From assembly GCA_026390595.1 (NCBI GenBank), contig JAPLFQ010000004.1, positions 1 through 64,000 of the forward strand: a DNA stretch of 64,000 bases, written 5' to 3'. A program made the translations under genes and the position numbers. This stretch comes from Ignavibacteriales bacterium. GTDB taxonomy: Bacteria; Bacteroidota; Ignavibacteria; UBA10030. Under the pieces are notes generated by a model, which was not told the DNA's origin, did no database searches, and saw only the letters and a program-made list of their open reading frames with translations. This document shows positions 2,281-24,380 of this stretch, piece by piece. Within the stretch, counting starts at the first letter, position 1. Every line of letters begins with the position of its first letter.

Positions 2281-4302
2281 ATGCGATCATCCCGACGAAG
2301 ATTCCTGAATACAGCTGCCCTGACGGCAGCCGGTGTGGCGTTAAGCCCGTGGAAAGCCATAGCGGGGTACATTCCAGCTCCCGCCCAGAGAGGGGCCCAA
2401 CGCGGCTTGCTCTTTGACAAGGCCGATATTCCGCGCATTCGTGAGACATTCAAACTCCCGCGTTTTGCCCCATACTGGAAGTCACTGGTTGACGCGGACC
2501 TTGAAGCGGACAAGAAATATCTCAGCACAGGGGCCAAGCTGAACAACCACGCGGTAGATTTCCTGAAAGTACGGCAGATACTCGAACGGACGTCATTTGC
2601 ATACACTATCGGCGGCGAGAAGCGTCATCTCGAGGTCGCATTGCTGGCGATCGGAAAAGTTCTTGAATACAAAAAATGGGATTACTTTCTCGAGGGGGGC
2701 GAATTCACCATGGGATTGCAGCGCGCTCCCGAGGCAACCATCGCTATGAGTTTTGCACTTGAATGGTTGAACGACGACCTCGGCGGCGACCTGAAGAAGG
2801 AAATGGAAAGACAGATAGGTGAAAAAGGAGCGCCGGCCTGTTACCGCACGCTCTATGGCATGAAGTACCCTGATCGCGTCCGCGGCTGGAAATTCGACCC
2901 GGAAAGCGATTATCCATATCCCGTGGACATGAAGCGATGGCCCCTGATTCTGAACTCCACCAACCTCAAAGTCATTCCCATCTGCGGCCTCGGAGTCGGC
3001 GCCTGTCTGTTGTATGACAAGCATCCGCAGGCGAAGCAATGGCTCAACCTGGCTATCTCGAGCGCAAAAGCGTTTGCGCCGATGTTCGGCACAGACGGCT
3101 GCTATGACGAAGGGGTGAGTTATTGGGGATACACGGCCCTGCACCTTGCGATGTTTCTGGAGATCATGTACCGGAGGCTGGGGATCGATGAGCGAGGCCT
3201 GATAAACTTTTCAGGCACGGTGAGGTACGGACTGCAGATGTCCATGCCGAGTGTCGGAAAGCCAGATGATTGCGTGAATTTCGGTGACGCAAGCGTTGTG
3301 GGTGATGTCTCTGTTGCGGCATGGGTGGCACAGAAGAGTCGTGACCCCATTGCGCAGTATGTCACGACATCGGTCAGCGAGATCAGGACGCACTACGGTG
3401 CGATATGGTACGATCCATCAGTAGCGCCAAAGACGCCAGGACCAGAATTGTACGACGTCCGCTTTGCCAACGATGTCGTGGTGTCGCGTACCGGTTGGGA
3501 TACAGATAGCTCGGTCGTCGCAATACGCAGCGGTGGACCGGCAAACCATGAACATGCGGACCGCAACAGCGTTGTCTTCAAGGCGTACGGTGAACGATTG
3601 TTGCATGATCCGTTGCACGCGGCTTACCCGTATACATTACCGCATTGGGTGCTGCGCCTGACACAAGCACACACCGCTGTGCTTATTAACGGCAAAGGGC
3701 ATCAGTATCATGATGGCCATGAAGGCACAAACGCTTCATGGGCCGAGGCAAACGTGGTCCAGTACAAACCGACGGAGCATTCGCTTGTCGTAACCAGCGA
3801 TGCAACCGGGGCGTACCAGCTTGTCAATTCGGATGTAGCTCTCGTGCGACGAACGCTGATTTTCCTGAAACCCGATGTCATCCTGCTCTTCGACCGGGTC
3901 AAAATGAAATCAGCAAAGTCTACGGTGCAGCTCCGCTTCCAGATTTTCAACGAGGACGGAAAAGGAGAGTCGGAGATGATGCAAACAGGTTTCTTGATCA
4001 AGCGACCGCGGGCGACGTTGCGAGGAACGATCACGGGCTCCACACCGGTTGCCATGAAATCGGGTGTTCACACCACTCCGAAAGAAATCGGTGTGTATCC
4101 ATATCTCGAGGCTGAGGCGGGAGAGGGTCTGGATCATCAGATCCTGACTGTCTGCACGGCGCAGCGAGCGGGAAAAGAACACGGCAAAGTCTCGCACACG
4201 GTGCAAGGGACGGTCTTGACGGTGAAGGTGGATCATAACGGCCAGTCAAAGACCGTGACGATGCGCGGGGACGAAGATCTTCCCACAGTAACAATTATCT
4301 GA
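2281..4302 (+). CDS. Tat-exported heparinase II/III-like polysaccharide lyase
   Basis: A 673-residue protein. The N-terminus (SRRRFLNTAALTAAG) is a twin-arginine signal, so the protein is probably exported folded. Residues about 40-370 form the helical (alpha/alpha) toroid and the C-terminal half a beta-sandwich, the architecture of heparinase II/III (PL12/PL21-type) lyases. The segment NHEHADRNS (about residue 420) matches the HxHAD-type motif at the domain junction of the family. Such enzymes cleave uronic-acid-containing polysaccharides by beta-elimination; some relatives are hydrolases. AAAGGA at 2268-2273 serves as ribosome binding site. A second, distant member of the fold is encoded at 31429. 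The glycan attacked is unknown. Confidence 0.8.
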   Translation: MRSSRRRFLNTAALTAAGVALSPWKAIAGYIPAPAQRGAQRGLLFDKADIPRIRETFKLPRFAPYWKSLVDADLEADKKYLSTGAKLNNHAVDFLKVRQILERTSFAYTIGGEKRHLEVALLAIGKVLEYKKWDYFLEGGEFTMGLQRAPEATIAMSFALEWLNDDLGGDLKKEMERQIGEKGAPACYRTLYGMKYPDRVRGWKFDPESDYPYPVDMKRWPLILNSTNLKVIPICGLGVGACLLYDKHPQAKQWLNLAISSAKAFAPMFGTDGCYDEGVSYWGYTALHLAMFLEIMYRRLGIDERGLINFSGTVRYGLQMSMPSVGKPDDCVNFGDASVVGDVSVAAWVAQKSRDPIAQYVTTSVSEIRTHYGAIWYDPSVAPKTPGPELYDVRFANDVVVSRTGWDTDSSVVAIRSGGPANHEHADRNSVVFKAYGERLLHDPLHAAYPYTLPHWVLRLTQAHTAVLINGKGHQYHDGHEGTNASWAEANVVQYKPTEHSLVVTSDATGAYQLVNSDVALVRRTLIFLKPDVILLFDRVKMKSAKSTVQLRFQIFNEDGKGESEMMQTGFLIKRPRATLRGTITGSTPVAMKSGVHTTPKEIGVYPYLEAEAGEGLDHQILTVCTAQRAGKEHGKVSHTVQGTVLTVKVDHNGQSKTVTMRGDEDLPTVTII

Positions 4303-7245: not shown

Positions 7246-9630
7246 ATGAAGTCAACGATCATCAGCATACTGCTTATGGCATTGCAGTCAACCGGCATGA
7301 GCAACGATCTTGCGCAGGGGAAGAACCGCATTGCCATCGAGAATGAATTCATCCGGGTCGTTGTTGACCAGGATGGAGGCGTGTGCCGGGAAACGTACTA
7401 CGTCAAGAAGGGGAAGTCCTGGATTGAGATACTCCAAAGCGGAAGTTCACTGCGGCCGGACCCGATCATCCGGGGAAACGGCGAAGTGGTTCCGCTCAGG
7501 AGCGCGTCGGTTTCGAAGGGCTCCGGGAAGACTCAAATCGTCATCGTGAGACCGGCGCCGGGTGAAGGGGTGACGCTGAAATCCATTGAGCTGCACAAAG
7601 GGGAACGGTGGGCACGAGTAACGTTCGCATACAGGACGGGAGGAAACCTCCGGCTCGAATCGTTCTGGTCGACCTATTCGTTTGTGCCGGGTGGAAAACG
7701 CTATGCGGCGTATAAGCCGCTCGATTTTGTCTGGACGCCGCAACTTCGCCCGGAGCCGGAACATATTATCGCGGATCACGCGTTCCGTTCACCGGCACTG
7801 ATGCTGCAAAAAGACGGATACTTTGCTTCCCTCGTTCCGGTGCTTTCGGACGTGGATGGCAGGGGGCGGAAGATACGGACCGTCGCAGATCTTCAGGTTG
7901 AAACCGCCGATCAACCGTTCTTTTCCATTGGACTGCAGAACTGGATTCCGGAACCGTACCGTTTTCGGAACACTCATGTCTATTATGTCGCTCCGGATTC
8001 ACTCGCTCCTGTTATGGGCGATACGACGGTCACGATGAACTACCTCCTGTTTCTTCGTTCCGATGCTCCGAAGCGCGAAGGATTTCGCGACGTGGTACGA
8101 TATCATTGGATGACTTCCGGAGCGGCGAACACACAGCGGCCGGCCGGACCGCAGTCGGAGCCTTTTTCGTCATACATTCAGAAGGCGTGGTATCAATTCG
8201 TGCCTCAGGTCGCACTCGACACGCAGTATCATGGGGTTCCGGTCACGCTGCTTCGCCAGGCCAGGCTCGCGTGGAGCAACAAACTTCCTAAGTCGGCCGA
8301 CAACGACAGCTGGTTCAATGTCTGGTTCAACGCATTGCGGACCGCATATGGAATGTACTTGCATGGGAAAACCGTTGACGATCAGCATCTGATACGTCAG
8401 GCGACACAAGTTCTCAATTTGGCGCTCCTGGCGCCACAGCAGAAGGGAATTGCGCCATCGATATTTTACATCGACAGCGCCGGCGGCCATTGGGTTGCAG
8501 ATCATGCGTGGGGAGGAATTGACGATGGCCGCAATCTTCCCGCGTTCCACAACGCCTGGACCTGCTACTGGCTGCTGCAGTGGATCGATCTCGAGCCCGA
8601 ACGAAAGACGGAGATCCTCCGCTTCACAAGAGCGTTTGCAGATTTCCTGGTTCTCAAGCAGCATCGCAACGGAGTGATACCCTCCTGGTATGATCCGACG
8701 ACCCTGGAACCGGTGGAAACATTCAGGGATGAAAACGCGGAAACGGCCGGAGCGGCATTGTTTCTCGCAGAATTCTATTCCCGGACCAAAGGCACCAAGT
8801 ACCTGCGCGGCGCAGAACGGGCAATGCAGTATATGTTCAAATCTGTTGTGCCGGAGCGAAAGTGGTTTGATTTCGAAACATTCTTTTCGTGCTCCCGAAA
8901 ACCGCTCGGGTTTTTCGATTCGTACACGCAGCAGAATCCTCAAAACACGCTTTCCATGCATCAAGCGGCTGAAGCGTGCTATGAGTTGTTCAGACTGACA
9001 GGCAAGACAGAATACAAAGACCGCGGCGTCGCGATCGTGGATTATCTCTGTCTGTATCAGCAGGTGTGGAGCCCCCGGTGGCTGTCGCGGGAACTGTTCG
9101 GCGGTTTTGGAGTCCAGAACACCGATGCAGAATGGAGCGATTCCCGTCAGGGGTACTTTGCGGTGACACTGATGAAATATTATGAATTGACGGGGCAGAA
9201 GGAGTACTTCGAGCGTGGCGTGGCGGCATTACGGTCCATGTTCTCGTTGTTCGAGTCGCCGACCTCACCGAGGACGGCGGAAAATTACGGGCACTCAGGA
9301 TACGACCAGCCTGCGGGTGTGACAGGACTTCACTGGGGAACGGGAAGTTCCGTTGTCTCGATACACCTGATCACTCGCCGGTTCGGCGATGCCTACGTCG
9401 ACGTAAAGGGGAAATGGGGAGTTGGCATCGATGGATGCAGGATCCCGACTGTGACAATTGCGGGAACGGAAATTCATGTAGAGGTTGTGGACAATCTTGT
9501 GAAGGCGAGGACAATCAAGTTGAAATTCGGCAACGTGGCGAAATCCCACTACGAGATCATCGTGAACAATAAACCCCTTGGACGCGTTTCTGCCGCAATG
9601 TTGCGGGGAGGGATCGATGTCGCACTCTAA
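7246..9630 (+). CDS. Secreted six-hairpin-glycosidase-like protein, function unknown
   Basis: A 794-residue protein whose ATG follows directly on the preceding stop codon. A hydrophobic N-terminus (MKSTIISILLMALQSTG) suggests export. The N-terminal 300 residues are beta-rich; about 330-690 is helical with repeated aromatic-rich helices (WFNVWFNALRTAYG, NAWTCYWLLQWIDL, MHQAAEACYELFRLTG), the look of an (alpha/alpha)6 barrel as in unsaturated glucuronyl hydrolases and related glycosidases. A short beta domain closes the chain. I do not recognise a specific GH or PL family. Its 3' end overlaps the next gene by 14 bases, tying it to the propeller/toroid gene set downstream. Confidence 0.6.
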   Translation: MKSTIISILLMALQSTGMSNDLAQGKNRIAIENEFIRVVVDQDGGVCRETYYVKKGKSWIEILQSGSSLRPDPIIRGNGEVVPLRSASVSKGSGKTQIVIVRPAPGEGVTLKSIELHKGERWARVTFAYRTGGNLRLESFWSTYSFVPGGKRYAAYKPLDFVWTPQLRPEPEHIIADHAFRSPALMLQKDGYFASLVPVLSDVDGRGRKIRTVADLQVETADQPFFSIGLQNWIPEPYRFRNTHVYYVAPDSLAPVMGDTTVTMNYLLFLRSDAPKREGFRDVVRYHWMTSGAANTQRPAGPQSEPFSSYIQKAWYQFVPQVALDTQYHGVPVTLLRQARLAWSNKLPKSADNDSWFNVWFNALRTAYGMYLHGKTVDDQHLIRQATQVLNLALLAPQQKGIAPSIFYIDSAGGHWVADHAWGGIDDGRNLPAFHNAWTCYWLLQWIDLEPERKTEILRFTRAFADFLVLKQHRNGVIPSWYDPTTLEPVETFRDENAETAGAALFLAEFYSRTKGTKYLRGAERAMQYMFKSVVPERKWFDFETFFSCSRKPLGFFDSYTQQNPQNTLSMHQAAEACYELFRLTGKTEYKDRGVAIVDYLCLYQQVWSPRWLSRELFGGFGVQNTDAEWSDSRQGYFAVTLMKYYELTGQKEYFERGVAALRSMFSLFESPTSPRTAENYGHSGYDQPAGVTGLHWGTGSSVVSIHLITRRFGDAYVDVKGKWGVGIDGCRIPTVTIAGTEIHVEVVDNLVKARTIKLKFGNVAKSHYEIIVNNKPLGRVSAAMLRGGIDVAL

Positions 9631-10612
9631 ATTTCTGATGGCGGTTGTTTTCCTCGTGTCGTGCGGGAGCGGACTGCTGTTCGCCCGGCAGGATACTTTG
9701 TATATGTCGGTTCTCAATTCACGCAAGCACCGTCTTGGTGCGCTCGACAATCCGACCGTCGGGCTCTTCGTCAGCACGGATGCTGGCGTGTCGTGGAAGC
9801 ACAGAGGATGGACGGGCTATATTCGCACGTTCTATACAGAAGCGGGTTCTGACGGTGTGCTTTGGTCGGCATGCGGCAATGGAGTACTCCGATCATCCGA
9901 CCATGGCCTAATGTGGCGGATCGCGACGGGTTGGCAGGTGACCGAAGTGCTGAAAGTGAAGGTGGATCCGTCGAATCCGGCAGTCGTCTATGCCGCAACG
10001 GCATACGGAGTCTTCAAGACTCAAGACAGCGGTGAGAGCTGGAAAGAGCAAAATGCCGGTTTTCTGAAACCGTTTGTCTCCGATATCGTCGCAGATCGGA
10101 CCAACACCATGAAACTCTTCGCTGCAAGCGAAGACGGCGTCTACATGAGCACTAATGCCGGCGATCGGTGGCGGTTGATTGGTCTGAAAGGAAAAGGGAT
10201 TCGGACACTCCTTCAGCATCCGGCGCAAGCTCGAACATTCTTCGCCGGGACCGAGGATGACGGATTCTTCATCACGTCTGACGGAGGAGCGACCTGGCAG
10301 CAGTCGAACGGCGGCCTCACGCAGATGACCGTCTACACGATTGCGTGCGATCGCGCGAATCCGGACTTGGTGTACATCGGAACACACGGTGGCGGCGCGT
10401 ATCGCTCGTCCGATCGCGGTAAGAACTGGAAACAGATAACCCAAGGTTTGGATAATCTCGTCGTGCATTCCCTTGCAGTCCTTCCGTCAAATCCTTCGGT
10501 TGTGTTTGCAGGAACGTTGAACGGCGGACTGTTCAAGAGCACCGATCGCGGAGAACATTGGATCTTTAACAGCCAGGAGGAGGGACAAGTGTGGGGGCTT
10601 TGGGTACGTTGA
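9617..10612 (+). CDS. Secreted Asp-box (BNR/sortilin-like) beta-propeller protein 1
   Basis: A 331-residue protein with a cleavable-looking signal peptide (hydrophobic stretch to about residue 24). Seven Asp-box motifs of the form S-x-D-x-G-x-x-W are visible, for example STDAGVSW, SSDHGLMW, TQDSGESW, TSDGGATW, SSDRGKNW and STDRGEHW, spaced about 40 residues apart, so a seven-bladed propeller is expected. No sialidase catalytic Arg triad or Tyr is evident, so it is more likely a binding or scaffold protein than a neuraminidase. The start at 9617 is chosen over an upstream ATG at 9578 because GGGGAGGGA precedes it. It overlaps the preceding gene (14 bases) and the next (22 bases). Two paralogues follow at 12414 and 13489. 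Confidence 0.75.
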   Translation: MSHSKFLMAVVFLVSCGSGLLFARQDTLYMSVLNSRKHRLGALDNPTVGLFVSTDAGVSWKHRGWTGYIRTFYTEAGSDGVLWSACGNGVLRSSDHGLMWRIATGWQVTEVLKVKVDPSNPAVVYAATAYGVFKTQDSGESWKEQNAGFLKPFVSDIVADRTNTMKLFAASEDGVYMSTNAGDRWRLIGLKGKGIRTLLQHPAQARTFFAGTEDDGFFITSDGGATWQQSNGGLTQMTVYTIACDRANPDLVYIGTHGGGAYRSSDRGKNWKQITQGLDNLVVHSLAVLPSNPSVVFAGTLNGGLFKSTDRGEHWIFNSQEEGQVWGLWVR

Positions 10613-12435
10613 GGATCTCAAAGACTATACTGCCGTCGCTTTGTGTGATGGCGCTGACGTGTCTCAGCTCTGTATCGCTTCCGGCTCAGGGCGGGTTGTC
10701 CCCTGCCGCCCAGTTCGAGCAGCGCCGGCAGCGTCTTCTCGACGTGGTCAGTCAAGAGCGGGATCGCGGATTCTTCACCGTGACAGCGAAGTTCCTGACC
10801 GGGCGGGACAAGGAATGGGCGGCAGCAATGCTCGATTCGCTTACCACCGACGAGAGCATCGGCGGCATGTTCTATTCCTACACGGCAATTGGGACATACT
10901 TGAGACTCCGGGACCAGTTGCCGGATTCGCTCAGGCGGAAAATTCGACAGGCATACCGTACACGGACGATGTACCGGGGCGACACGGAAAACCACTGGGT
11001 GATGTACTACACCGGTCTCTATCTGGCTGCTCAGACGTGGCCGGGCGAGAATAGATCCCAATGGTTCAACGGCAAAAGCTCCACGGAGAATTTCAGAGAA
11101 GCTGAAGGGTGGCTGAACCGCTGGATGAAGATCGCCTCAACGATCGGTCAGGGTGAGTTCGACTCTCCGACGTATTTCACTGTGTTTATGACGCCAATGC
11201 TGACGCTCTGCGAGTATGCGAAAGATCCGGTGATGAAGCGAAAGGCCGAAATGATGGTTGACCTGCTCTTCGCCGACTATGCGGTTGATCATATCGGCGG
11301 CAACTACGCCGGCGGGCATGCCCGGGACTACCCGGAAGATATCGTCAATCCATTATCGGCGCCGACTGCTCTCTGGGCCTGGCTCTACTTTGGCGAGCCC
11401 AAGACCGAGCTTTGGACCGAAACCCGTTACCATCCCCGCCACAGGGGTGGATGGGAGCCTGCTTTTGGAGCGATGTCCTCCTATCGATTACCGGAAATCA
11501 TCTATCGGATTGCGACGGATCGTTCGAAGCCATACGTCGCAACGGAGACCAAACGTGTCCGCAACATTATTCGATTCGGACAGGAGAAGAATCCCCCCGT
11601 GTATAAGTACATGTATATGACCCGTTCGTATGCGCTGGGTTCGCTTCAAGGTGGAATTCTTCAGCCCATCCAGCAGCACACGTGGGACATCACGTACGTT
11701 TCTGACAAGCCGAACAACACCATCTTCACCCTTCATCCGTTCTCTTCGGGCAAAGAGCTGGCAATGTTCTTCCCTGAAGAACAGAAATTTCTGGCGGATG
11801 AGGTGAACCGCTACCATCTCGTGTACACAGATCCGAACAAATGGAACTCCAGTTCGCCGTACGAGCAGACGTTTCAGCACAAGAACTCGATCATCGTCCT
11901 CTACAATATTGACAAGGGTGTTACACAGCCGCACGTCGACGGCTTCTTTCCGAAAACTCTTGAAGAACGAAAAGAGGATCCGTCGGGGTGGATTTTCTGC
12001 CGGGCCGGATCGGTGTATGTCGCTTTATTTCCGCTCAAGCCGTATGAATGGATTGACGAGAAAATAAACTGGCGGTGGCGGAGCAATGAGCTCAAGAACG
12101 GTGTTGTGGCAGAGGTGGGGTCGTCCGATGATGATGGAACGTTTGAGGAATTTCAGAAACGAATCGCCACATTGAAGCCTGCGTCCAACGCTGACGACAA
12201 AACCCTCACGGTCCGATACCGAACGCGTGGCGGGGACGATATGATGTTCACCTATGGCGGTGAACGGAGACTCAACGGCAAGAACATCGATTTCAGAACG
12301 TACAAACTATTCAATGGTCCATTCATTCAAAGCGAGCGGGGCAGCGGCATTGTGAGGATGCTTTCTCAGGGTCAGGTGCTTGAGCTCGACTTTAATAAGG
12401 TGACAATCAGAGAGTGGAAACAACAAGATCGGTAA
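10591..12435 (+). CDS. Secreted toroid-like protein A (GDTENHW family), putative polysaccharide lyase or hydrolase
   Basis: A 614-residue exported protein starting at a GTG with a strong ribosome binding site (AGGAGGAGGG at 10575-10584, six bases upstream). A signal peptide ends near residue 33 (SLPAQ). The N-terminal 300 residues are helical with conserved YRGDTENHW (about 129-137) and IGQGEFDSPTYF, followed by KRVRNIIRFG and GSLQGGILQPIQQHTW and a beta-rich C-terminus. The Asn-His pair and helical toroid followed by beta-sandwich recall alginate- and heparin-type lyases, but I cannot assign a PL or GH family. The protein at 14513 is a clear paralogue. Encoded between two propeller genes and overlapping both by 22 bases. 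Confidence 0.65.
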   Translation: MGALGTLRISKTILPSLCVMALTCLSSVSLPAQGGLSPAAQFEQRRQRLLDVVSQERDRGFFTVTAKFLTGRDKEWAAAMLDSLTTDESIGGMFYSYTAIGTYLRLRDQLPDSLRRKIRQAYRTRTMYRGDTENHWVMYYTGLYLAAQTWPGENRSQWFNGKSSTENFREAEGWLNRWMKIASTIGQGEFDSPTYFTVFMTPMLTLCEYAKDPVMKRKAEMMVDLLFADYAVDHIGGNYAGGHARDYPEDIVNPLSAPTALWAWLYFGEPKTELWTETRYHPRHRGGWEPAFGAMSSYRLPEIIYRIATDRSKPYVATETKRVRNIIRFGQEKNPPVYKYMYMTRSYALGSLQGGILQPIQQHTWDITYVSDKPNNTIFTLHPFSSGKELAMFFPEEQKFLADEVNRYHLVYTDPNKWNSSSPYEQTFQHKNSIIVLYNIDKGVTQPHVDGFFPKTLEERKEDPSGWIFCRAGSVYVALFPLKPYEWIDEKINWRWRSNELKNGVVAEVGSSDDDGTFEEFQKRIATLKPASNADDKTLTVRYRTRGGDDMMFTYGGERRLNGKNIDFRTYKLFNGPFIQSERGSGIVRMLSQGQVLELDFNKVTIREWKQQDR

Positions 12436-13433
12436 TTCTGTTTGCAGCTACATTGCTTCTCGGTGGTACATCCATTTCGGGTGGATTGATTGAGCTCGCC
12501 AGCCTGCCGAAGCAAGAGGGCTTCTATGCCGTAGTATTTTTGAATCGTGGGCAGGTCACTGGCAACACGCGCACTGTCGGACTCTTCAAGCGCGCACCAG
12601 GCGATACAACCTGGGCGAACCAGTACCAACCAGGTCTTCTGACCTTCGGTATGGGGAAGTGGCAAAAGGGGGCAACGTTGCGTCGATATTTGTGCATGGG
12701 GAACGGTCTTCACCGGTCGGACGATGACGGACGTTCCTGGCGCGTAGTTACCGATTGGCACACGGAAGAAGTACTCTCTGTAGCTCTCGATCCACGGGAT
12801 TCGGCCCTTCTTTATATCGGCACGCCGTTCGGAGTGTTCAAGTCAACAGACGACGGTACCCATTGGACGAAGAAAATGCAAGGGATGAAGAAGTGGTTTG
12901 TCAAGAATGTGCTTCTGGACCATGCCAATCCAGACATCTTGTATGCCGGCGCAGAAGACGATCTCTATCGATCGACGGATCGCGGTGAACACTGGACCCC
13001 GTTGCACGTCGGGGCTCAATACATCGAAGTTGTCATCCAACACCCATTTGATGTTCAACGGCTGCTTGTTGGAACCGAGGATGATGCCGTCCGGGTGACC
13101 ACGAACGGTGGTCGCACCTGGAAAGCGGGGATTGGACTGCCGAAAACCGCATTCTACGGTCTCTGTAGTTCGTCGGACGGCCGGACAATGTATTGCGGAG
13201 GCTACAAGACGGGATTGTGGAAGAGCCTTGATGGGGGGCTTTCGTGGAGTCTGCTCTGGCCAGCCTCTGATATTGAGGCGATTTTCACGATCTTTGTTCA
13301 TCCGGAGGATCCTCTCCATTTGATGGTTGGCACGAGTGGTCAGGGGATCTATGAATCACTCGACGGTGGAATATCCTGGCTGTATGCCGGGTTGCGCGGA
13401 TGCCACGTGAAACAGATCGCTTTCTATCCGTGA
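12414..13433 (+). CDS. Secreted Asp-box beta-propeller protein 2
   Basis: A 339-residue protein starting at a GTG inside the end of the toroid A gene (22-base overlap). The N-terminus (VILFAATLLLGGTS) is a signal peptide. About six Asp-boxes can be seen, such as RSDDDGRSW, STDDGTHW, STDRGEHW, TTNGGRTW, SLDGGLSW and SLDGGISW. The arrangement LGxPFGVFKSxDDG is shared with paralogues 1 and 3, so all three derive from one ancestor. No catalytic residues of sialidases were recognised; a glycan- or protein-binding role beside the toroid enzyme is the plain inference. No further domain is appended. Confidence 0.75.
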   Translation: METTRSVILFAATLLLGGTSISGGLIELASLPKQEGFYAVVFLNRGQVTGNTRTVGLFKRAPGDTTWANQYQPGLLTFGMGKWQKGATLRRYLCMGNGLHRSDDDGRSWRVVTDWHTEEVLSVALDPRDSALLYIGTPFGVFKSTDDGTHWTKKMQGMKKWFVKNVLLDHANPDILYAGAEDDLYRSTDRGEHWTPLHVGAQYIEVVIQHPFDVQRLLVGTEDDAVRVTTNGGRTWKAGIGLPKTAFYGLCSSSDGRTMYCGGYKTGLWKSLDGGLSWSLLWPASDIEAIFTIFVHPEDPLHLMVGTSGQGIYESLDGGISWLYAGLRGCHVKQIAFYP

Positions 13434-13488
13434 CCAGACAACGCTGCTCTCGTACGAATAAGAACTCTTACGTTATCGAAGGTGTCGA

Positions 13489-14496
13489 ATGAAAGCTACT
13501 CTTTTCCTGGTTGTCTTCTGTATTCTTCTTGTCGCTGTGCCGTTGGCGCTTCAGGCGCAGCAGTCTACTGTGTTTGCATCAGTTCTTTCCACGAAACTCT
13601 TTGTTGTCGGTGCTGCGAATCCTGAGACGGGGTTGTACACGCAACTGACGAACGAAGATACCGTGTGGCACCATCTGGGAGCCAAGAACATCCGGGAGTT
13701 TGGTGTGGCTGTGCATACGCCTTCAAAGGGCCAGGTCATCTGTCTGGCTTCCGGAAACGGCGTTCATAGGACCACCGATGGAGGCAAGACATGGAAAGTC
13801 ACGACCGGTTGGCAGATCACCGAAGTGTTGTGTGTGATCATCGACCGTCGCGATCCGAACATCATGTTCTGCGGCACCCCATACGGGGTGTTCCGGACGC
13901 TTGATGGAGGAGCGGTCTGGTCAGAATGCAACAACGGTATCGCGGAAAAATTCACACAGTCCATCATCATCGATCACGCGAATCCGTCGGTTGTCTACTG
14001 TGCGACAGAGGACGGTGTCTATCGGAGCGAGAACAGAGGGGATGTTTGGAAGCGTACCGGTTTGAATGTCGGCGGTGTGCGTGTCGTTGTGCAGAGTCCA
14101 AAGGATGTGAATGTACTTGTCGCCGGCACGGACGACCATGGCATCTACATCACGCGCAACGGAGGCCGGTTTTGGGAAAAGAACGAAGCCGGATTGGATC
14201 ATCAGACGTTTTTTACGGTCGTGTTCGATCCGTCGAACCCTCAGGTTCTCTATGCCGGGGGATATGTGACAGGCGTCTACAAGTCGATTGACGGAGGAAC
14301 AAGCTGGGCGCGAAAGAATAACGGCCTGCCCGTTCTGAACATTCATTCGATTGCCGTTGATCCGACAAACAGCCAGAGGGTGTTTGCAGGATCGATGTGG
14401 GGGGGCGTGTACCGATCGGATGACGGCGGCGACACCTGGAGAAACATCGGATTGAGCGGCTCACAAGTGTGGCAGATTATTGTAGAACCTTTCTAA
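13489..14496 (+). CDS. Secreted Asp-box beta-propeller protein 3
   Basis: A 335-residue protein with a typical signal peptide (LLVAVPLALQAQQ, cleavage near residue 24). Six Asp-boxes are visible, including TTDGGKTW, TLDGGAVW, TRNGGRFW, SIDGGTSW and SDDGGDTW. It is closest in layout to propeller 1: after the signal peptide both begin with a short strand (LYMSVLNSRK versus VFASVLSTKL) and end with a W-rich last blade (QVWGLW versus QVWQII). It is followed after 16 bases by toroid B, repeating the propeller-then-toroid order seen at 9617-12435. Function is unknown; probably a periplasmic or surface partner of the toroid proteins. Confidence 0.75.
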   Translation: MKATLFLVVFCILLVAVPLALQAQQSTVFASVLSTKLFVVGAANPETGLYTQLTNEDTVWHHLGAKNIREFGVAVHTPSKGQVICLASGNGVHRTTDGGKTWKVTTGWQITEVLCVIIDRRDPNIMFCGTPYGVFRTLDGGAVWSECNNGIAEKFTQSIIIDHANPSVVYCATEDGVYRSENRGDVWKRTGLNVGGVRVVVQSPKDVNVLVAGTDDHGIYITRNGGRFWEKNEAGLDHQTFFTVVFDPSNPQVLYAGGYVTGVYKSIDGGTSWARKNNGLPVLNIHSIAVDPTNSQRVFAGSMWGGVYRSDDGGDTWRNIGLSGSQVWQIIVEPF

Positions 14497-14512
14497 CGAG
14501 GAAACCCGAACA

Positions 14513-16336
14513 ATGAGACACATGACGCATGTTCTGCTTCTGACCCTTACGTTGTGCGCTGGTGCGTACGCCCAGATGGTGAATCGTGAAACCTACCTGA
14601 AGGAATTCGAAAAACGCGCAGCGTTCGTGACGTCAATCTATGACACGATACAAGCCCCGGGATATTATCAGGCCGCAGTCCGGTATGCGCACAACAAGGA
14701 GATCACCGTTGCTGACAGGATGTTCAAGGAGTTGTTGCGAGATCCGCGCGGCGATATGTTCTGGATGATTCCATGCATCGGAGCGTACCTTGTTGGAAAA
14801 GACAAAATGTCGGAAGACACCCGGGCTGTCGTCCGTAATGCCTGGAAAACGTACGCACCGTACCGCGGGGACACGGAGAATCACTGGTGCATGTACTATT
14901 CCTCTCTCTATCTTGCGGCCGAGCAATGGCCGAACCTGCCCGGGAGCGAGTGGTACAACGGAAAGTCCTCGGAAGAAAATCGCAGGGAGGCACGGGAGTA
15001 TCTCATCCACTGGATGAACATCACAACGACGATCGGTCAGGGAGAATTCGTTTCGCCGGACTATTTTCCGGAGTACGCAATGCCAATGACCCTGTTGGCA
15101 GAGTTTGCGAAAGATCCCGAGATGAAAACCCGCGGCACGATGATGGTCGATTTCATCTTCGCGGATTTTGCGGCGGAACATCTCGCCGGACAATATATTG
15201 GAGGGTACAGCCGGATCTACCAGCCCGCGGTGTTCAAGCCGCTGCTCTCCGGAGCGTCGCAGTTCGCCTATCTGTATTTTGGAACCGGTGAGCCGACGAA
15301 TTCAGGTTGGGTTGTTCTCCCAGCTCTCACTTCCTATCGACTGCCGGAGATCATTTACAATATCGCTCTCGATCGGAGCACGTCGTACATTCACAAGGAG
15401 CGAAAACGCGTCCGCAACGTCATTCGCTTCGGGGCCGAAAAGAACCCCCCGGTGTACAAGTATTCGTATGTGACAAAAGACTATGGGATTGGGTCTCTCC
15501 AGGGGGGCATTTTGCAGCCAATTCAGCAGCATACGTGGGGTGTGCGCTATCTCTACGGCCGTCCCTATACAACAATTTTCGGCTTACACCCGTACTGGTC
15601 AGGCTGGGAAGTTGGCATGTTTTTCCCAGAAGAGGTGAAGACGCTTATTGCCGACGTCGTGGCGTCGAAGGGAACGTATAACAATCCGGACAAATGGACA
15701 GGCGGCTCACCGTTTGAACGTACGTTTCAGCACAAGAATTCACTCATCGTTCTGTATGACATCAAACCCGGCACAACCACCGAGCACATCGATGGCTTTT
15801 TCCCGCGTAACCTTGAAGAACGCATTGTGGATCCCTCCGGCTGGATCATCTGCAAAGCAGGGGATACGTACGTTGGCTGGTATCCGTTACAGGAGTACGA
15901 GTGGAAGGAAGAGTCTGACACCCCGGCAAATTCGCTGAACGATATCGGCCGCCCGCAGCTGGAACGCGGCAAGGAAACCGGAAACTGGCGCCTGCGCAGT
16001 TACAAGCTGCAAAACGGCTATGTCATTGAAGTCCGGTCAAAAGACGAAATTGGATCCTTCGATCGCTTCAAAGCAAAACTTGCATCGCACATCCCAAAAG
16101 CAACGCTCACGCCCGGAGCTGTTTCCGTCCGGTACAGTTCGCTCGAAGGCGATAAGATGGAATTCGCGTTTCCGGAGAAACGCGTGCTGAACGGAACCTC
16201 GGTTGATCTCACGAAGACAAGGCTCTTTGACGGGCCGTTCCTGAGCGCCGATGTGGGAAGCGAGAAGCTGACCATCACCTACAAGTCCAAGAAGATGATC
16301 CTAGACTTCAAGGCAGTGAAAGTCATAGAACAATAA
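14513..16336 (+). CDS. Secreted toroid-like protein B (GDTENHW family), paralogue of toroid A
   Basis: A 607-residue exported protein (signal peptide LTLCAGAYAQ). It is collinear with the protein at 10591: YRGDTENHW (about 117-125), IGQGEFVSPDYF, KRVRNVIRFG, PVYKYSYVTKDYG, GSLQGGILQPIQQHTW and GFFPRNLEER all recur at matching spacing, while the C-terminal 130 residues diverge more. Retention of the Asp-Thr-Glu-Asn-His-Trp block in both copies suggests that it is functional, perhaps the catalytic or metal site. The pair most likely processes related sites in one glycan. Start ATG at 14513 follows GAGG at 14499-14502. No sequenced family I can name contains it with certainty. Confidence 0.65.
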   Translation: MRHMTHVLLLTLTLCAGAYAQMVNRETYLKEFEKRAAFVTSIYDTIQAPGYYQAAVRYAHNKEITVADRMFKELLRDPRGDMFWMIPCIGAYLVGKDKMSEDTRAVVRNAWKTYAPYRGDTENHWCMYYSSLYLAAEQWPNLPGSEWYNGKSSEENRREAREYLIHWMNITTTIGQGEFVSPDYFPEYAMPMTLLAEFAKDPEMKTRGTMMVDFIFADFAAEHLAGQYIGGYSRIYQPAVFKPLLSGASQFAYLYFGTGEPTNSGWVVLPALTSYRLPEIIYNIALDRSTSYIHKERKRVRNVIRFGAEKNPPVYKYSYVTKDYGIGSLQGGILQPIQQHTWGVRYLYGRPYTTIFGLHPYWSGWEVGMFFPEEVKTLIADVVASKGTYNNPDKWTGGSPFERTFQHKNSLIVLYDIKPGTTTEHIDGFFPRNLEERIVDPSGWIICKAGDTYVGWYPLQEYEWKEESDTPANSLNDIGRPQLERGKETGNWRLRSYKLQNGYVIEVRSKDEIGSFDRFKAKLASHIPKATLTPGAVSVRYSSLEGDKMEFAFPEKRVLNGTSVDLTKTRLFDGPFLSADVGSEKLTITYKSKKMILDFKAVKVIEQ

Positions 16337-16359: not shown

Positions 16360-17301
16360 ATGAATCAAACGAAACATCTCGACGTTGTTGTGGCCGGCCT
16401 GGCGCTGGCTGATATCATCGGACGCCCGGTGGAGTTCAACAAACCGCCGAAGCGCGGCACGCTGAGACTTATTGATTCGATAACGCTGACGACCGGCGGC
16501 AACGTCTCCAATGTGGGCATTGATCTGGCCCGGCTCGGTTTCAGGGTCGGGGCGATCACGAGGGTGGGGAACGATCCGATCGGCCGGTTTGTCATCCAGC
16601 ATTACCGGACGTTCGGGATGGATACTGAGGGGGTGACGATCGACGCCAAGGCGCAGACCTCGGCGACTATTGTCGGCGTGGGTGCCGACGGCGAGCGGAC
16701 GTTTCTCCATACGCGTGGATGCATGAAGAATTTCCGGGCCCAGGATATTCTCTCACGGATTCCATTAATTCAGAAAGCTTCCATCATTGCGATCGGATAC
16801 CTCGGCCTTCTCCCTGAAACCGAAAAGGAATTCAAACATCTGTTCCGCACGCTGAAACATGAGACATCGGTGAAAATTCTGCTTGATACCGCCGCGTCTC
16901 CGCACGTCACGGCAAAGGACCTCAAGGGTTTTATGCCATACGTGGATTATTTTATTCCCAGTTACGAGGAAGCAGTTGCGTTGACCGGCCGCAAGACCCC
17001 GGAATCAATTGTCGATGCCTTGTTCGATGCAGGCGCTCCGCACATCGTTGGCGTCAAACTCGCCGAGCGGGGATGCTATATATCGGATGGCCGGCACGGC
17101 AAGATGGTCAAAGCAACACGTGTCAAGAGGGTGGTCGATGCCACCGGTGCTGGTGATGCGTTTGTGGCCGGTTTTATAGCCGGAACACTGAAAGGATTGG
17201 ATCCGTTCAAAGCCGCCCGCGTTGCGAACGCGGTGGCTGCAAGCTGCGTCTCTGCCGTTGGTGCGTCAACCGCAATCAGAACGTTGGGTGAATATCTGTA
17301 A
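16360..17301 (+). CDS. PfkB-family carbohydrate kinase
   Basis: A 313-residue cytoplasmic ribokinase-type kinase. The substrate-side signature is TGGNVSNVGIDLARLG (about 46-61) and the ATP-side signature DATGAGDAFVAGF (about 263-275) with the catalytic Asp in GAGD. These enzymes phosphorylate free sugars, 2-keto-3-deoxy sugar acids or nucleosides at a primary hydroxyl. In this position, after the secreted lyase-like genes and before GH38, it could phosphorylate a monosaccharide or keto-deoxy acid released from the glycan. It differs from the LacC/FruK-type kinase at 33694, which acts on phosphorylated hexoses. Exact substrate unknown. Confidence 0.85.
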   Translation: MNQTKHLDVVVAGLALADIIGRPVEFNKPPKRGTLRLIDSITLTTGGNVSNVGIDLARLGFRVGAITRVGNDPIGRFVIQHYRTFGMDTEGVTIDAKAQTSATIVGVGADGERTFLHTRGCMKNFRAQDILSRIPLIQKASIIAIGYLGLLPETEKEFKHLFRTLKHETSVKILLDTAASPHVTAKDLKGFMPYVDYFIPSYEEAVALTGRKTPESIVDALFDAGAPHIVGVKLAERGCYISDGRHGKMVKATRVKRVVDATGAGDAFVAGFIAGTLKGLDPFKAARVANAVAASCVSAVGASTAIRTLGEYL

Positions 17302-17360
17302 TCTCGTAGAGCACCGGCCTTACCGTTGAATCCAGGGTACGATTGTCTTTCATGGGTGTT

Positions 17361-20042
17361 ATGAAAACAACATATCATATTGTATCGCATTCGCACTGGG
17401 ATCGGGAGTGGTATTTTCCATTCGATCGCTTTCGGTCGATGCTTGTAGACATGATCGAAGATCTCCTGGAACTGATGGAACGAAACCCCGAGTTCAAGTC
17501 CTACACGCTCGACGGCCAAATGGCCGCCGTGATGGACTACCTTGAAATTCGTCCCGACCGGGCCGAAACGTTGCGCCGTCTGGTGGAGGAAAAAAAGCTC
17601 TTCATAGGTCCCTGGTATATCCTCAACGACGAATTTCTTTCCAGCGGTGAATCACATCTCAGGAATCTCTCCCTCGGGTTTCGTCTTGGCGAACGTCTTG
17701 GCGGCGTGATGCCGGTTGGATATATCCCGGATCAATTTGGGCACATAGCTCAAATGCCCCAGATATTGCAGGGATTTGGCATCGATACAGCGCTGATCTA
17801 CAGGGGCTTTGGAGGGGAACCGGGGCAGGAGTTGTCCGAGTATTGGTGGATAAGTCCCGACGGAACACGCGTGCTCATGCACCATTTGCCGCGGGATGGA
17901 TACAGCGCGGGCTATTTTGCCTCAACGGATGAGTCCGTCATTCTGCAGAAGTTTAACCGCTTGAAAAAGGAATTGGACGCGCGGGCCACCACCTCGCAGC
18001 GCCTCTTCTTCAACGGCGGCGACCATCACTGGCCCGACGAAGAAGTCACGGTGGCTCTCGCCCAATTGCGGAAGCACTTCGACGCCGATTTCAAGCACAG
18101 TAACTTTCCGGACTTTTTTGCCGCGGTCAAACATGAACTCAACGCGTCGACGTCACTCCCGCGGTTGGAGGGCGAAACGCGTTTCGGTTTCCGCTATGCG
18201 TTCGCAGTGCTGGGCGGAGTCTTCTCGAGCAGGATGTACCTCAAGCAGTTGAATGCCGAATGCGAAACACTCCTGGAACGGTATCTCGAGCCGCTCAATG
18301 TTCTCGCCGTGGCGGGCGGGCTGCGGAGCAGGGCGCCGCAGATTGAACAGGCATGGAAGTACGTGCTTCAGAACCAGGACCATGACGCGATATGCGGGAC
18401 CAGCGTTGACGAGGTTCATCGCGAAATGGTGGTGCGCTACAACAAGGCAATGCAAATTGGAAACCATGTGCGAGCCGAATGTCTTGCGGCGCTGTTGCCG
18501 TATGACGAGCGCGAGCACCACGACGACCGGTTTGTATTCGTGTTTAACCCGTCGCCGTTCACACGCACGGAGGTTGTGGAGGCCGATGTAGAATTCTTCC
18601 TGCAGGACGTCGTGGTCGGTTTGAATCCTGAAGTGAACGTGGACGCGAAACGTCCTTCGGCCAAGGGATTCAAGCTCATCGACGCACGTGGAGCAGAAGT
18701 GCCGTATCAGGTGCTTCGCAGGAAAGAAGATTTTGGTGTGACGTATTCGAAGCACGACTATCCTCATCAAACGCTCGCGGACCGGTTTTCACTGATCCTT
18801 TCGGCACAGAACGTGCCGGCCCTCGGGTGGAAGGGATTGTCGGTCGTACAAACGGAAGACATGCCCCGTTACGAATCGGCGCTCCGGCTCGGCCGCAATT
18901 TCATGGAGAATGACTTTGTGCGAGTCGAGGTGGCACAGACCGGGGTTGTTTCCCTGACCGACAAGTCGACCGGGCTGAGGTTTGAAAAGATCAACTTCTT
19001 CGAAGACTCGGGTGACGTGGGGGATGAATACAATTACTCATACCCGGAACGGGATGAATGGATTGTGTCGGATCAACGTCGGGCACTTGTTTCGGTTGAG
19101 GAAGAGGGTCCCCTGCGCGTAGCGCTCAGAATTGATCATCGGATGATGGTGCCGGTGTCAGCTACGACGGATGAGAAGTCCCGTTCTTCCCAGAAAACCG
19201 AGCTCGCGATTTCCACGGTGCTGTCGATAACGCAGCTGTCGAAACGTGTAGATATCAAGACCACGGTCTTAAACTCGGTCAAGGATCATCGCCTGCGGAC
19301 GCTGTTTGCCACTGGCATCACGACGGACGAGTCGATTGCAGATACGCCGTTTGCCGTTGTCAATCGCAAGCACCGGCTGTACGACACCACGCAGTTTGCG
19401 ATCGAGCATCCGGCGATGGTCGCACCGATGCAGAGATTCGTAACGATACGCGACGCGCAGAAGAGTTTCACGCTGATCGTCAAGGGACTTCCCGAATACG
19501 AGCTCAAGCTCGATGAACCGGGCGTGTTGGCGTTGACATTGCTTCGATGTGTGGGAAAACTCTCAGGTCGGGAGCTGATTACACGTCCAGGCGGCGCCGC
19601 CGGATGGTGGAATGAAACACCTGATGCGCAATGCCCGGGAACGCACACGTTCGAGTATTCTGTCCTGCCTGGCACAGCCGGCGACGTTTCGGATTGGTCC
19701 TCGATCCTGAAAGAAGTCGAACTCTTCACGGTTCCTCCTCTGACCGTCAACCGGAAGAACGATCAACTGGTTCTGGAACACAGCTTTGTTTCAATAACAC
19801 CAGATTCGCTCACTCTTTCGGCCCTGAAAACTGCCGATGAAAAAAGGGGAATTGTGCTCCGTGTCAGCAATCCGGTTGACCGCACGGTTCAGGGAGAAAT
19901 TCACTTGAGCCTGCCGGTCAAGGAAGCGTTCAGGGCAAAAATGAACGAGGAGATTACAGAAGCGGTCCCAGTGTCGAAGGGGCACAGATTGCACATCACT
20001 GTGAAGCCGTTCGAGGTCGTTACGCTGCTGATTCATGTGTGA
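17361..20042 (+). CDS. Glycoside hydrolase family 38 alpha-mannosidase
   Basis: An 893-residue cytoplasmic enzyme. It begins with the GH38 zinc site HSHWDREW (about residues 10-17; His12 and Asp14 as ligands), followed by GYIPDQFGH with the catalytic Asp nucleophile and QDHDAICGTSVDEVH, which supplies the later His ligand. The rest is the helical linker and large beta domains of the family. The layout is that of bacterial GH38 enzymes such as MngB, which cleaves (6-phospho)mannosylglycerate. Three in-frame starts exist: TTG 17343 (with AGGG five bases before it), ATG 17352 and ATG 17361; the last is chosen because homologues start just before the zinc motif. No signal peptide, so its substrate is imported. 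Confidence 0.9.
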   Translation: MKTTYHIVSHSHWDREWYFPFDRFRSMLVDMIEDLLELMERNPEFKSYTLDGQMAAVMDYLEIRPDRAETLRRLVEEKKLFIGPWYILNDEFLSSGESHLRNLSLGFRLGERLGGVMPVGYIPDQFGHIAQMPQILQGFGIDTALIYRGFGGEPGQELSEYWWISPDGTRVLMHHLPRDGYSAGYFASTDESVILQKFNRLKKELDARATTSQRLFFNGGDHHWPDEEVTVALAQLRKHFDADFKHSNFPDFFAAVKHELNASTSLPRLEGETRFGFRYAFAVLGGVFSSRMYLKQLNAECETLLERYLEPLNVLAVAGGLRSRAPQIEQAWKYVLQNQDHDAICGTSVDEVHREMVVRYNKAMQIGNHVRAECLAALLPYDEREHHDDRFVFVFNPSPFTRTEVVEADVEFFLQDVVVGLNPEVNVDAKRPSAKGFKLIDARGAEVPYQVLRRKEDFGVTYSKHDYPHQTLADRFSLILSAQNVPALGWKGLSVVQTEDMPRYESALRLGRNFMENDFVRVEVAQTGVVSLTDKSTGLRFEKINFFEDSGDVGDEYNYSYPERDEWIVSDQRRALVSVEEEGPLRVALRIDHRMMVPVSATTDEKSRSSQKTELAISTVLSITQLSKRVDIKTTVLNSVKDHRLRTLFATGITTDESIADTPFAVVNRKHRLYDTTQFAIEHPAMVAPMQRFVTIRDAQKSFTLIVKGLPEYELKLDEPGVLALTLLRCVGKLSGRELITRPGGAAGWWNETPDAQCPGTHTFEYSVLPGTAGDVSDWSSILKEVELFTVPPLTVNRKNDQLVLEHSFVSITPDSLTLSALKTADEKRGIVLRVSNPVDRTVQGEIHLSLPVKEAFRAKMNEEITEAVPVSKGHRLHITVKPFEVVTLLIHV

Positions 20043-23483: not shown

Positions 23484-24380
23484 ATGAAGGTAGCACAATT
23501 TGAAGATACGCAGGGTTACTGCATCGGCATCTTTGACAAGGGTCGATGGATCAACCTCTCCGACGCTGAAGCGGCATATACAGCGATTACGCAAAAGGTC
23601 GTCGTGGAGCCGACGACAACGATTCTTCAGCTTCTTGAAGACGGTCGCTTCGATCCGGCAGAATTCAGAGTCGTTCTACAATTCCTGGAGAAGCACAAGC
23701 TCGAGAAACAGTATCTGATCAGCAAAGACGCGGTTCTGAAGGCCCCCATCCTGCGTCCCCCAAAAATCGTCGCACTTGGTCTCAACTACGCACTCCATGC
23801 CAAGGAAGGTAACGCGGCGGTTCCGAAGGAACCGATCATCTTCATGAAGGCAGGCTCCTCGGTGATTGGTCCGGGTGATACCATCCTGCTGCCAAAAGGT
23901 TTGGGGAGAATGGATCATGAAATCGAATTGGCCGTCATCATTGGGCGGCGGACAACAGCGGCAAGGAAAAAGGACGCCCTGAGTTATGTAGCCGGCTATA
24001 CGATACTGAACGACGTGACGGCGCGCGAGCTGCAGACAAGCGATCTTGAGAAGAAACACCCATGGTTTCGTTCGAAGAGCTATGATACGTTTACGCCTCT
24101 TGGCCCCTGGATCGTGACGGCAGACGAAATCGGCAGCCCGATCGAGCTCGGACTCGAATGCCGCGTCAACGGCACCGTACGTCAGAAGTCGAACACAAAG
24201 AACATGGTTTTTGACGTGCCCACGCAGATTGAATTCATCTCCAAATTCATTACCCTGGAGCCCGGCGACATCATCTCCACGGGAACCCCCCACGGGATCG
24301 GACCGATAAAACATGGCGATGAAGTCGTTTGTCGGATCAAGAATATCGGCGAACTGAAGAACCCGGTTCGGGATCGATGA
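23484..24380 (+). CDS. Fumarylacetoacetate hydrolase-family protein
   Basis: A 298-residue protein with a short N-terminal domain and the FAH fold from about residue 90. ALGLNYALHAKE opens the catalytic domain, GRMDHEIELAVIIG contains the metal-binding Glu pair, NDVTARELQ the Asp/Arg segment, and STGTPHGIG the conserved C-terminal loop. Members hydrolyse or decarboxylate 1,3-diketo acids, or dehydrate keto-deoxy sugar acids (for example diketo-deoxy-rhamnonate hydrolase). In this locus a role in sugar-acid breakdown is the likeliest. The next gene's ATG overlaps its stop (ATGA). GAGGAAAACC just upstream is the ribosome binding site. Confidence 0.88.
   Translation: MKVAQFEDTQGYCIGIFDKGRWINLSDAEAAYTAITQKVVVEPTTTILQLLEDGRFDPAEFRVVLQFLEKHKLEKQYLISKDAVLKAPILRPPKIVALGLNYALHAKEGNAAVPKEPIIFMKAGSSVIGPGDTILLPKGLGRMDHEIELAVIIGRRTTAARKKDALSYVAGYTILNDVTARELQTSDLEKKHPWFRSKSYDTFTPLGPWIVTADEIGSPIELGLECRVNGTVRQKSNTKNMVFDVPTQIEFISKFITLEPGDIISTGTPHGIGPIKHGDEVVCRIKNIGELKNPVRDR

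Follow-up and report, generated by a model that had tools for sequence, protein, structure and literature searches.

A 64,000-nucleotide stretch of an Ignavibacteriales genome (GenBank assembly GCA_026390595.1, contig JAPLFQ010000004.1, positions 1 to 64,000; called the window below) carries five consecutive open reading frames (ORFs) on the plus strand in the order propI, torA, propII, propIII, torB (Table 1). The two tor genes probably encode members of an undescribed family within the polysaccharide-lyase superfamily that combines an (alpha/alpha)-toroid with an antiparallel beta-sheet domain, each toroid protein having a dedicated Asp-box propeller. This reading is supported by computation, namely by the predicted fold, a conserved active-site pattern, tight co-occurrence, gene fusion and clade-to-clade pairing. 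From these results we infer a lyase activity, its substrate, a physical complex and a recognition role of the propeller.

Toroid and propeller proteins as partners

The frames of propI and torA overlap by 22 nucleotides (nt), as do those of torA and propII; the gaps between propII and propIII and between propIII and torB measure 55 and 16 nt. An earlier note on this DNA, made from the sequence alone, had described five consecutive ORFs with this order and with overlapping or close borders, and all of them were recovered at the same coordinates. The listed ORF of propI begins at 9578 with TTG, and the internal ATG at 9617 is the likelier start. Judged by eye only, the N-termini of all five proteins resemble signal peptides. 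The complete five-gene order was found in eight of 18 related loci (L003-L008, L012 and L017), with torA split in L005 and with propI and torB incomplete in L017, where the contig ends; the remaining loci are truncated or variant. The split torA of L005 (4685-6588) extends over two overlapping frames, probably as a result of a frameshift or an assembly error. The closest public relatives are metagenome-assembled genomes (MAGs) labelled mostly Ignavibacteriales/Ignavibacteria or Bacteroidetes. The conservation of the module in these relatives excludes a chance layout. The host genome (4.77 Mb) contains two toroids and three propellers (E <= 8.9e-171); the next BNR protein scores 2.6e-33 and lies in a frame of 713 amino acids.

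TorA and TorB are paralogues with 46% sequence identity, and both carry the blocks YRGDTENHW and LQGGILQPIQQHTW. Neither protein matched a Pfam model at E <= 1 or an NCBIfam model above its cut-off, the only sub-cut-off NCBIfam match being one of TorA at E 0.025. The toroids thus have no profile match above cut-off to the heparinase II/III C-terminal family (PF07940) or to the other Pfam and NCBIfam models. Among 30 relatives that make up the toroid profile A4, Pfam matches at E <= 0.1 were limited to Acetyltransf_3 in two proteins (best E 0.002), probably by chance, and 26 relatives of profile A6 gave zero NCBIfam matches at E <= 0.01. These results support a family that has neither a Pfam nor an NCBIfam model, in agreement with the earlier description of two paralogous toroids of no nameable family.

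Relatives with E < 1e-80 to profile A4 are called near toroids and the others form the distant set. The near set was drawn partly from the search for related loci and partly from chosen genomes and is not a random sample. The pair counts are based on 71 near toroids, that is 75 rows minus two L133 duplicates of L020 genes, the L005 fragment and a fragment at a contig edge in L015; TorA and TorB of the window are not counted among the 71. A same-strand ORF that matched the propeller profile A2 at E <= 1e-5 was counted as a propeller neighbour. ORFs were taken from their first start codon, and some overlaps are overstated. A propeller overlaps the toroid or lies within 200 nt of it in 61 of the 71 cases (5' of the toroid in 45, 3' in 16), lies 1.2-2.0 kb away in two and is fused to the toroid in four, which amounts to 67 of 71 near toroids with a propeller within 2 kb or in the same chain. 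In the fusions the toroid is N-terminal to the propeller (L013, 912 amino acids; L103, 985; L109, 967; L110, 1060). L013 belongs to a Bacteroidetes-labelled MAG, and L103, L109 and L110 come from Verrucomicrobiota, the phylum to which the Opitutaceae locus L018 belongs. The frames of 961 and 971 amino acids in L025 and L026 were rejected as fusions; they are long open frames beside a separate adjacent propeller.

The same association was observed at the level of whole genomes. These searches scored the best four toroid and the best seven propeller candidates per genome, and absences are subject to this; the E thresholds that divide the propeller subfamily from the remaining BNR proteins were chosen after the gap was visible. 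The toroid profile is matched at least once in 43 of 288 Verrucomicrobiota genomes, with a near toroid (E < 1e-100) in 14 and weaker matches only in 29. The propeller subfamily (best E < 1e-100) occurs in exactly the same 14 genomes; outside them, G415 has a partial propeller match (E 2.9e-51) in a frame of 755 amino acids. Among 296 genomes of the window's own phylum, near toroids are present in nine and weaker ones only in three. Propeller matches (E <= 1e-35) were obtained in 12 genomes of this phylum. Seven of these, with best E <= 2.6e-99, are all among the nine toroid-bearing genomes, and the other five, at 1.3e-41 or weaker, bear no toroid and are taken as carrying other BNR proteins. 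In the two remaining toroid genomes (G164 with L089 and G208 with L088) a diverged propeller adjoins the toroid (E about 1e-33 to 1e-32 with the window profile). Fisher tests of co-occurrence gave p values of 4e-24 and 1e-12, which ignore relatedness and overstate the significance.

In order to compare the two families clade by clade, trees of the toroid domains and of the propellers were read side by side. The 71 toroid domains fall into clades A (14), B (16), V1 (11) and V2 (20) and ten others, which were left out of the clade-pair counts. The 75 propellers form clades I, II, III, V1 and V2 in a quick tree with SH-like approximate likelihood-ratio support only and weak deep joins. Clade membership was read off these trees. 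Clade A toroids are adjacent to a clade I propeller on the 5' side (10 pairs) and to a clade II propeller on the 3' side (10 pairs, plus the fused L013). Clade B toroids pair with clade III (14) and in two cases with clade II, V1 toroids with V1 propellers (eight, 3' of the toroid, plus three fused) and V2 toroids with V2 propellers (18 on the 5' side, three on the 3' side). Three pairs of a clade A toroid with a clade III propeller on its 3' side fit loci such as L011, L014 and L094, which lack propII and where this propeller also sits 5' of torB. Within clade V2 the toroid and propeller distances of 18 pairs correlate with r 0.75, a value reached by none of 2000 permutations. The sorting of the clades indicates that two propellers probably belong to torA and a single one to torB, which refines the earlier scheme.

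Several results weigh against a strict partnership. Four of the 71 near toroids (L019 of Thermoflexibacter, L100, L101 and L108) have no propeller in the locus. The permutation test of the 18 V2 pairs leaves shared species descent uncontrolled. When paralogues were exchanged within a genome, r fell modestly in one case (0.69), clearly in another (0.53) and hardly in a third (0.746). The earlier note had named toroid homologues that occur regularly without a propeller as evidence against its proposal, and such homologues exist in part: none of the 22 distant toroids has a propeller neighbour (L083 lies near a contig end), while in the near family only the four toroids just mentioned are unpaired. 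Toroid-propeller pairing is nevertheless real, and the proposal that each toroid has its own propeller is upheld by clades that keep their partners, by an association in at least two phyla and by the four fusions.

Predicted toroid fold and active-site pattern

A structure model of TorB was built from a 30-row alignment. It is a confident model (mean predicted local distance difference test score, pLDDT, 86.3; predicted template-modelling score, pTM, 0.88) with a helical part that ends near residue 286 and a predominantly beta domain after it. The model thus displays the two-domain architecture of a toroid and an antiparallel beta-sheet that characterizes the lyase superfamily of PL8, PL12, PL15, PL17, PL21, PL33, PL35, PL39 and PL40. 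In a Foldseek search of the PDB all 28 matches at E <= 0.001 were toroid polysaccharide lyases (best E 9.1e-6; identity 8-10%), comprising alginate, glycosaminoglycan, hyaluronate, chondroitin and xanthan lyases or exoHep (exo-heparin lyase). VIA-align placed the PL35 structure 8khw on top (Z 10.9, 392 residues, root-mean-square deviation (rmsd) 5.8), with PL8, PL39, PL17 and human dermatan sulfate epimerase within one Z unit; the absence of a lyase family from this list carries no meaning. The VIA-align matches cover both domains (residues 26-570). The model points to a match of TorB at the level of the superfamily and not to membership of one listed PL family.

Conserved columns were counted in a toroid alignment of 95 rows, made up of 73 near toroids (including TorA and TorB of the window) and 22 distant ones. 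In the numbering of TorB, five residues each occur in 71 of the 73 near rows: Asn123, His124, Glu178, Tyr184 and Arg234. In the 22 distant rows Asn123, Tyr184 and Arg234 are invariant, His124 is found in 18 and Glu178 in 20. Gln406 is conserved in 72 near and 19 distant rows. In this fold the catalytic set consists of an Asn, a Tyr 53-60 residues further on and a His of the beta-domain (PMC12088678, PMC11848413, PMC12915356). Described sets are N240/Y294/H424 in PL12, N192/Y246/H401 in PL35, N201/Y258/H413 in PL17, N186 plus H187/Y239/H405 in PL39 and N336 plus H337/Y390/H555 in exoHep (PMC12088678, Table 4), N238/Y291/H444 in PL33 (PMC11848413) and N245/Y305/H485 plus Glu301 in PL40 (PMC12915356). 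The spacing from Asn to Tyr is 53-57 in PL12, PL15 exoHep, PL17, PL33, PL35 and PL39 (PMC12088678, PMC11848413) and 60 in PL40 (PMC12915356). The PL39 tyrosine is numbered 239 in one source (PMC12088678) and 259 in another (PMC11848413). Exceptions are the PL15 alginate lyase with Arg314 and PL21 with Glu205 (PMC12088678, Table 4). The order N123-H124...E178...Y184 of the toroids, with a spacing of 61, fits the lyase pattern. Predicted fold and active-site pattern together support the glycan processing that the earlier note had proposed.

Several observations speak against the assignment to the lyase superfamily or limit it. The fit of the active-site pattern is one of sequence order and spacing. 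The candidates for the beta-domain His are less conserved: His340 (156 residues past Tyr184) is His in 57 of 73 near and 7 of 22 distant rows, and His359 (175 past Tyr184) in 57 near and 13 distant rows. Whole-chain TM scores in Foldseek were only 0.29-0.44 with an rmsd above 10 Å, and VIA-align itself warns that Z values below about 13 in mostly helical folds may reflect a mere common arrangement. Searches of the PDB sequences with TorA (phmmer) and with profiles A4 and A6 (hmmsearch) returned nothing beyond chance, and hhalign of A6 with the window's own heparinase-type family (four rows) gave a probability of 0.2%.

Comparison with described lyases shows both common and distinct features. 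The PL40 ulvan lyase Uly1040 shares the toroid and antiparallel beta domain and has Asn245, Glu301 and Tyr305 with a spacing of 60, compared with 61 in TorB (PMC12915356). In contrast, it has 856 amino acids instead of about 600, its metal-linked base His485/His487 is without a clear counterpart in the toroids, and the available part of its description mentions no propeller partner (PMC12915356). The PL35 GAGases (8khv, 8khw) have Asn, Tyr and beta-domain His in the order that TorB would share if His340 or His359 is its beta-domain His (PMC12088678), and 8khw heads the VIA-align list, although tied. They differ in an Asn-Tyr spacing of 54 versus 61 and in the lack of detectable sequence similarity, and the part of the report at hand describes no propeller partner for them (PMC12088678). 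The PL39 alginate lyase and PL15 exoHep have adjacent Asn and His residues and a Tyr 53-54 positions on, reminiscent of N123-H124/Y184 (PMC12088678). Again no sequence similarity was found, and their solved chains are larger (770 and 841 residues).

The distant toroids form a wide superfamily (22 rows; L083-L085 and L116-L131). Ten of them were scanned and gave no Pfam match above cut-off, except for extra domains in one. In L080/L128 a distant toroid, a GDSL esterase and a DUF1961 domain are encoded in a single frame, which suggests de-esterification coupled to cleavage.

Propeller function and alternative explanations

PropI, PropII and PropIII match the Sortilin-Vps10 model PF15902 with 87.9, 58.6 and 70.9 bits (gathering score 33), which names a fold and not a function, and also match the BNR model PF02012 above the Pfam cut-off. 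Against NF045728 (F510_1955 family glycosylhydrolase) they score 128, 91.1 and 119.8 bits, below the curated cut-off of 175. The nearest solved propellers by sequence and by Foldseek are 3b7f (a putative BNR glycosyl hydrolase), GH74 xyloglucanases and dispase autolysis-inducing protein. The similarity to 3b7f and the xyloglucanases extends to the fold and the Asp-box repeats. GH74 enzymes contain two propellers in one chain. In contrast, each propeller here is a single domain of about 335 amino acids that is partnered by a toroid and has a distinct conserved Thr-x-Trp-x-x-x-Glu element. GH33-type sialidases carry a conserved arginine triad. Judged from alignment columns alone, no such triad was found in the 75 propellers, where only two columns hold Arg in at least 60% of the rows (55 and 52 rows); this agrees with the earlier statement that sialidase catalytic residues are lacking.

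Outside the Asp-boxes, Thr106 is kept in 70, Trp108 in 72 and Glu/Asp112 in 74 of the 75 propellers. Within clades the stretch from -12 to -6 before the Asp-box Asp is better conserved (means 0.70-0.96) than the stretch from -19 to -14 (0.52-0.62). From the Asp-box layout we infer that the two stretches are loops on opposite faces of the propeller. As far as the aligned sequences go, this conservation fits a ligand-binding face and would also be compatible with catalysis.

The natural fusion L013 was used for the prediction of a toroid-propeller complex. The model (pLDDT 89.6 overall) has a well folded propeller, mostly above 90 past residue ~670, and a weak linker. Its Foldseek and VIA-align lists, the latter headed by 3b7f and a 7-bladed designed protein, are filled by propellers and have no bearing on the toroid half. 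With an unpaired alignment pTM was 0.69 and no interface between toroid and propeller was defined; on this value the relative placement of the two parts is not predicted. The value should not be read as evidence that contact is absent. The earlier interpretation therefore stands for the family, the pairing and glycan processing. The propeller may be a recognition subunit, as the earlier note supposed, or a second enzyme; no interface is predicted.

Such a second enzyme, for instance an exo-acting hydrolase or lyase, would catalyze the reaction that precedes or follows that of the toroid on the same glycan, in a sequential chemistry without a complex. The glycan enzymes among the closest solved propellers, the near-fixed Glu/Asp112, Thr106 and Trp108 and the better conserved -12 to -6 stretch speak for it. 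We consider it rather unlikely, since a sialidase-like Arg set is lacking (even the best Arg column reaches only 55 of 75), the GH74 site is formed by two propellers and is out of reach for one domain, and four one-chain fusions together with near-constant adjacency favour a subunit over a separate enzyme. A uronyl C5-epimerase with the same fold and Tyr/Asn chemistry is an improbable identity of the toroid. VIA-align matched TorB to human dermatan sulfate epimerase (6hzn) with Z 10.1, and these lyases and DS-epi1 have fold and catalytic Tyr in common (PMC11848413). However, the window context looks catabolic (GH38, sugar kinase, aldolase, heparinase-type lyase), GH78, GH127 and an SSF importer stand beside relatives, and all 28 significant Foldseek matches are lyases. 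That the association reflects operon history only, with two unrelated secreted members of a catabolic pathway passed on jointly, would agree with the overlapping or abutting gene ends across this part of the operon and with the loci that clades A, B, I, II and III have largely in common, but is very improbable, as the pair stays in the scanned verrucomicrobial loci where other neighbours differ (GH78, DUF6807, GH127, M28), adjacency stays while the order flips between 5' and 3', fusions occur in two phyla and 0 of 288 genomes have one family without the other at the E 1e-100 level. The coupled translation cited earlier as a sign of pairing had to be given up as specific evidence, because overlaps run through the whole operon: the upstream gene for a 794-amino-acid protein overlaps propI by 14 nt and is itself abutted with zero gap by its predecessor.

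For a toroid lyase with its own propeller the following mechanism can be proposed. Each toroid most likely holds an acidic, uronate-containing glycan chain in its interdomain cleft. The uronate carboxylate would be neutralized by Asn123 together with His124, and Tyr184, aided by the beta-domain His and by Glu178 and Arg234, would perform the beta-elimination. Each toroid would work with its own secreted propeller, made alongside it or fused to its C-terminus, and this propeller most likely uses its clade-specific loop face to grip the glycan or to determine chain specificity. A secreted lyase-fold protein with a propeller suggests a two-part sugar-cutting machine. More tentatively, the pair may be an obligate two-component glycan lyase, in which the propeller completes or gates the cleft, the partners have co-diversified for different acidic glycans and the toroid of the Ignavibacteria-type clade A is flanked by two different propellers.

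Genomic context and implications

The genes downstream of torB for a sugar kinase and a GH38 protein are syntenic in relatives (Table 1). Further genes around the module encode DUF4432, Gfo/Idh, aminotransferase class III, a double amidohydrolase, a DeoC/LacD-type aldolase and a second Gfo/Idh protein. A heparinase II/III-type protein encoded further upstream is a second lyase candidate of the operon by sequence similarity. An MR_MLE protein (24329-25480) passes the cut-off for o-succinylbenzoate synthase with 280.5 versus 200.65 bits; thus the gene run probably reaches unrelated genes downstream, and on this score a rhamnose or fucose acid pathway formed by the downstream MR_MLE, FAA and DHO genes was dropped. 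The gene for the 794-amino-acid protein is syntenic with the module in many relatives and missing in L016; its product shows weak C5-epimerase and pectate-lyase matches below cut-off.

Table 1: Genes of the module, neighbouring genes and proposed functional residues of TorB in the window.
Feature	Position	Strand	Description
Heparinase II/III-type lyase	2281..4302	+	Similar to PL35 8khw (E 3.5e-14) and PL15 3a0o (E 8.7e-14)
794-amino-acid protein	7246..9630	+	No library match above cut-off; context gene, outside the pair
propI	9617..10612	+	331 amino acids; Asp-box (Sortilin-Vps10/BNR) propeller, clade I; 5' partner of torA
torA	10591..12435	+	614 amino acids; GTG start; toroid lyase-superfamily protein (predicted), clade A
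propII	12414..13433	+	339 amino acids; GTG start; Asp-box propeller, clade II; 3' of torA
propIII	13489..14496	+	335 amino acids; Asp-box propeller, clade III; 5' partner of torB
torB	14513..16336	+	607 amino acids; toroid lyase-superfamily protein (predicted); alpha-toroid ~25-290, beta-domain ~290-607
TorB Asn123-His124	14879..14884	+	Proposed carboxylate neutralizer/base; position counted from the start at 14513
TorB Glu178	15044..15046	+	Conserved column
TorB Tyr184	15062..15064	+	Proposed catalytic Tyr, 61 residues past Asn123
TorB Arg234	15212..15214	+	Conserved column
PfkB sugar kinase	16360..17301	+	Syntenic with torB in relatives
GH38	17343..20042	+	Syntenic in relatives

In Verrucomicrobiota, where chosen neighbours were inspected, the pair stands beside GH78 (L018, L020), DUF6807 (L018), a class V aminotransferase, a peptidase M28 and an SSF importer (L112), GH127 and M28 (L106) and a heparinase-type lyase (L115). 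In the window's own phylum SSF importers lie near the toroids of L088 and L089. These settings look catabolic, and the neighbours in L018, L020, L106 and L112 hint at a rhamnose- or arabinose-containing glycan or glycopeptide.

Toroid lyases have been described as two-domain enzymes that act alone, at least in the sections available to us (PMC12088678, PMC11848413, PMC12915356). A literature search of titles and the beginnings of abstracts, with CAZy itself outside the search, yielded no case of a toroid lyase partnered by a propeller. Should the lyase reading hold, the chemistry would be ordinary and the architecture unusual. A propeller-partnered toroid family would then exist in Ignavibacteria-type MAGs, in related genomes of the phylum and in Verrucomicrobiota, fused in two lineages, and one could test directly in it whether a lyase can receive its specificity in trans. 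The many lyase-fold relatives without a Pfam model for the toroid part, which share the Asn/Glu/Tyr/Arg core, are targets for enzyme discovery.

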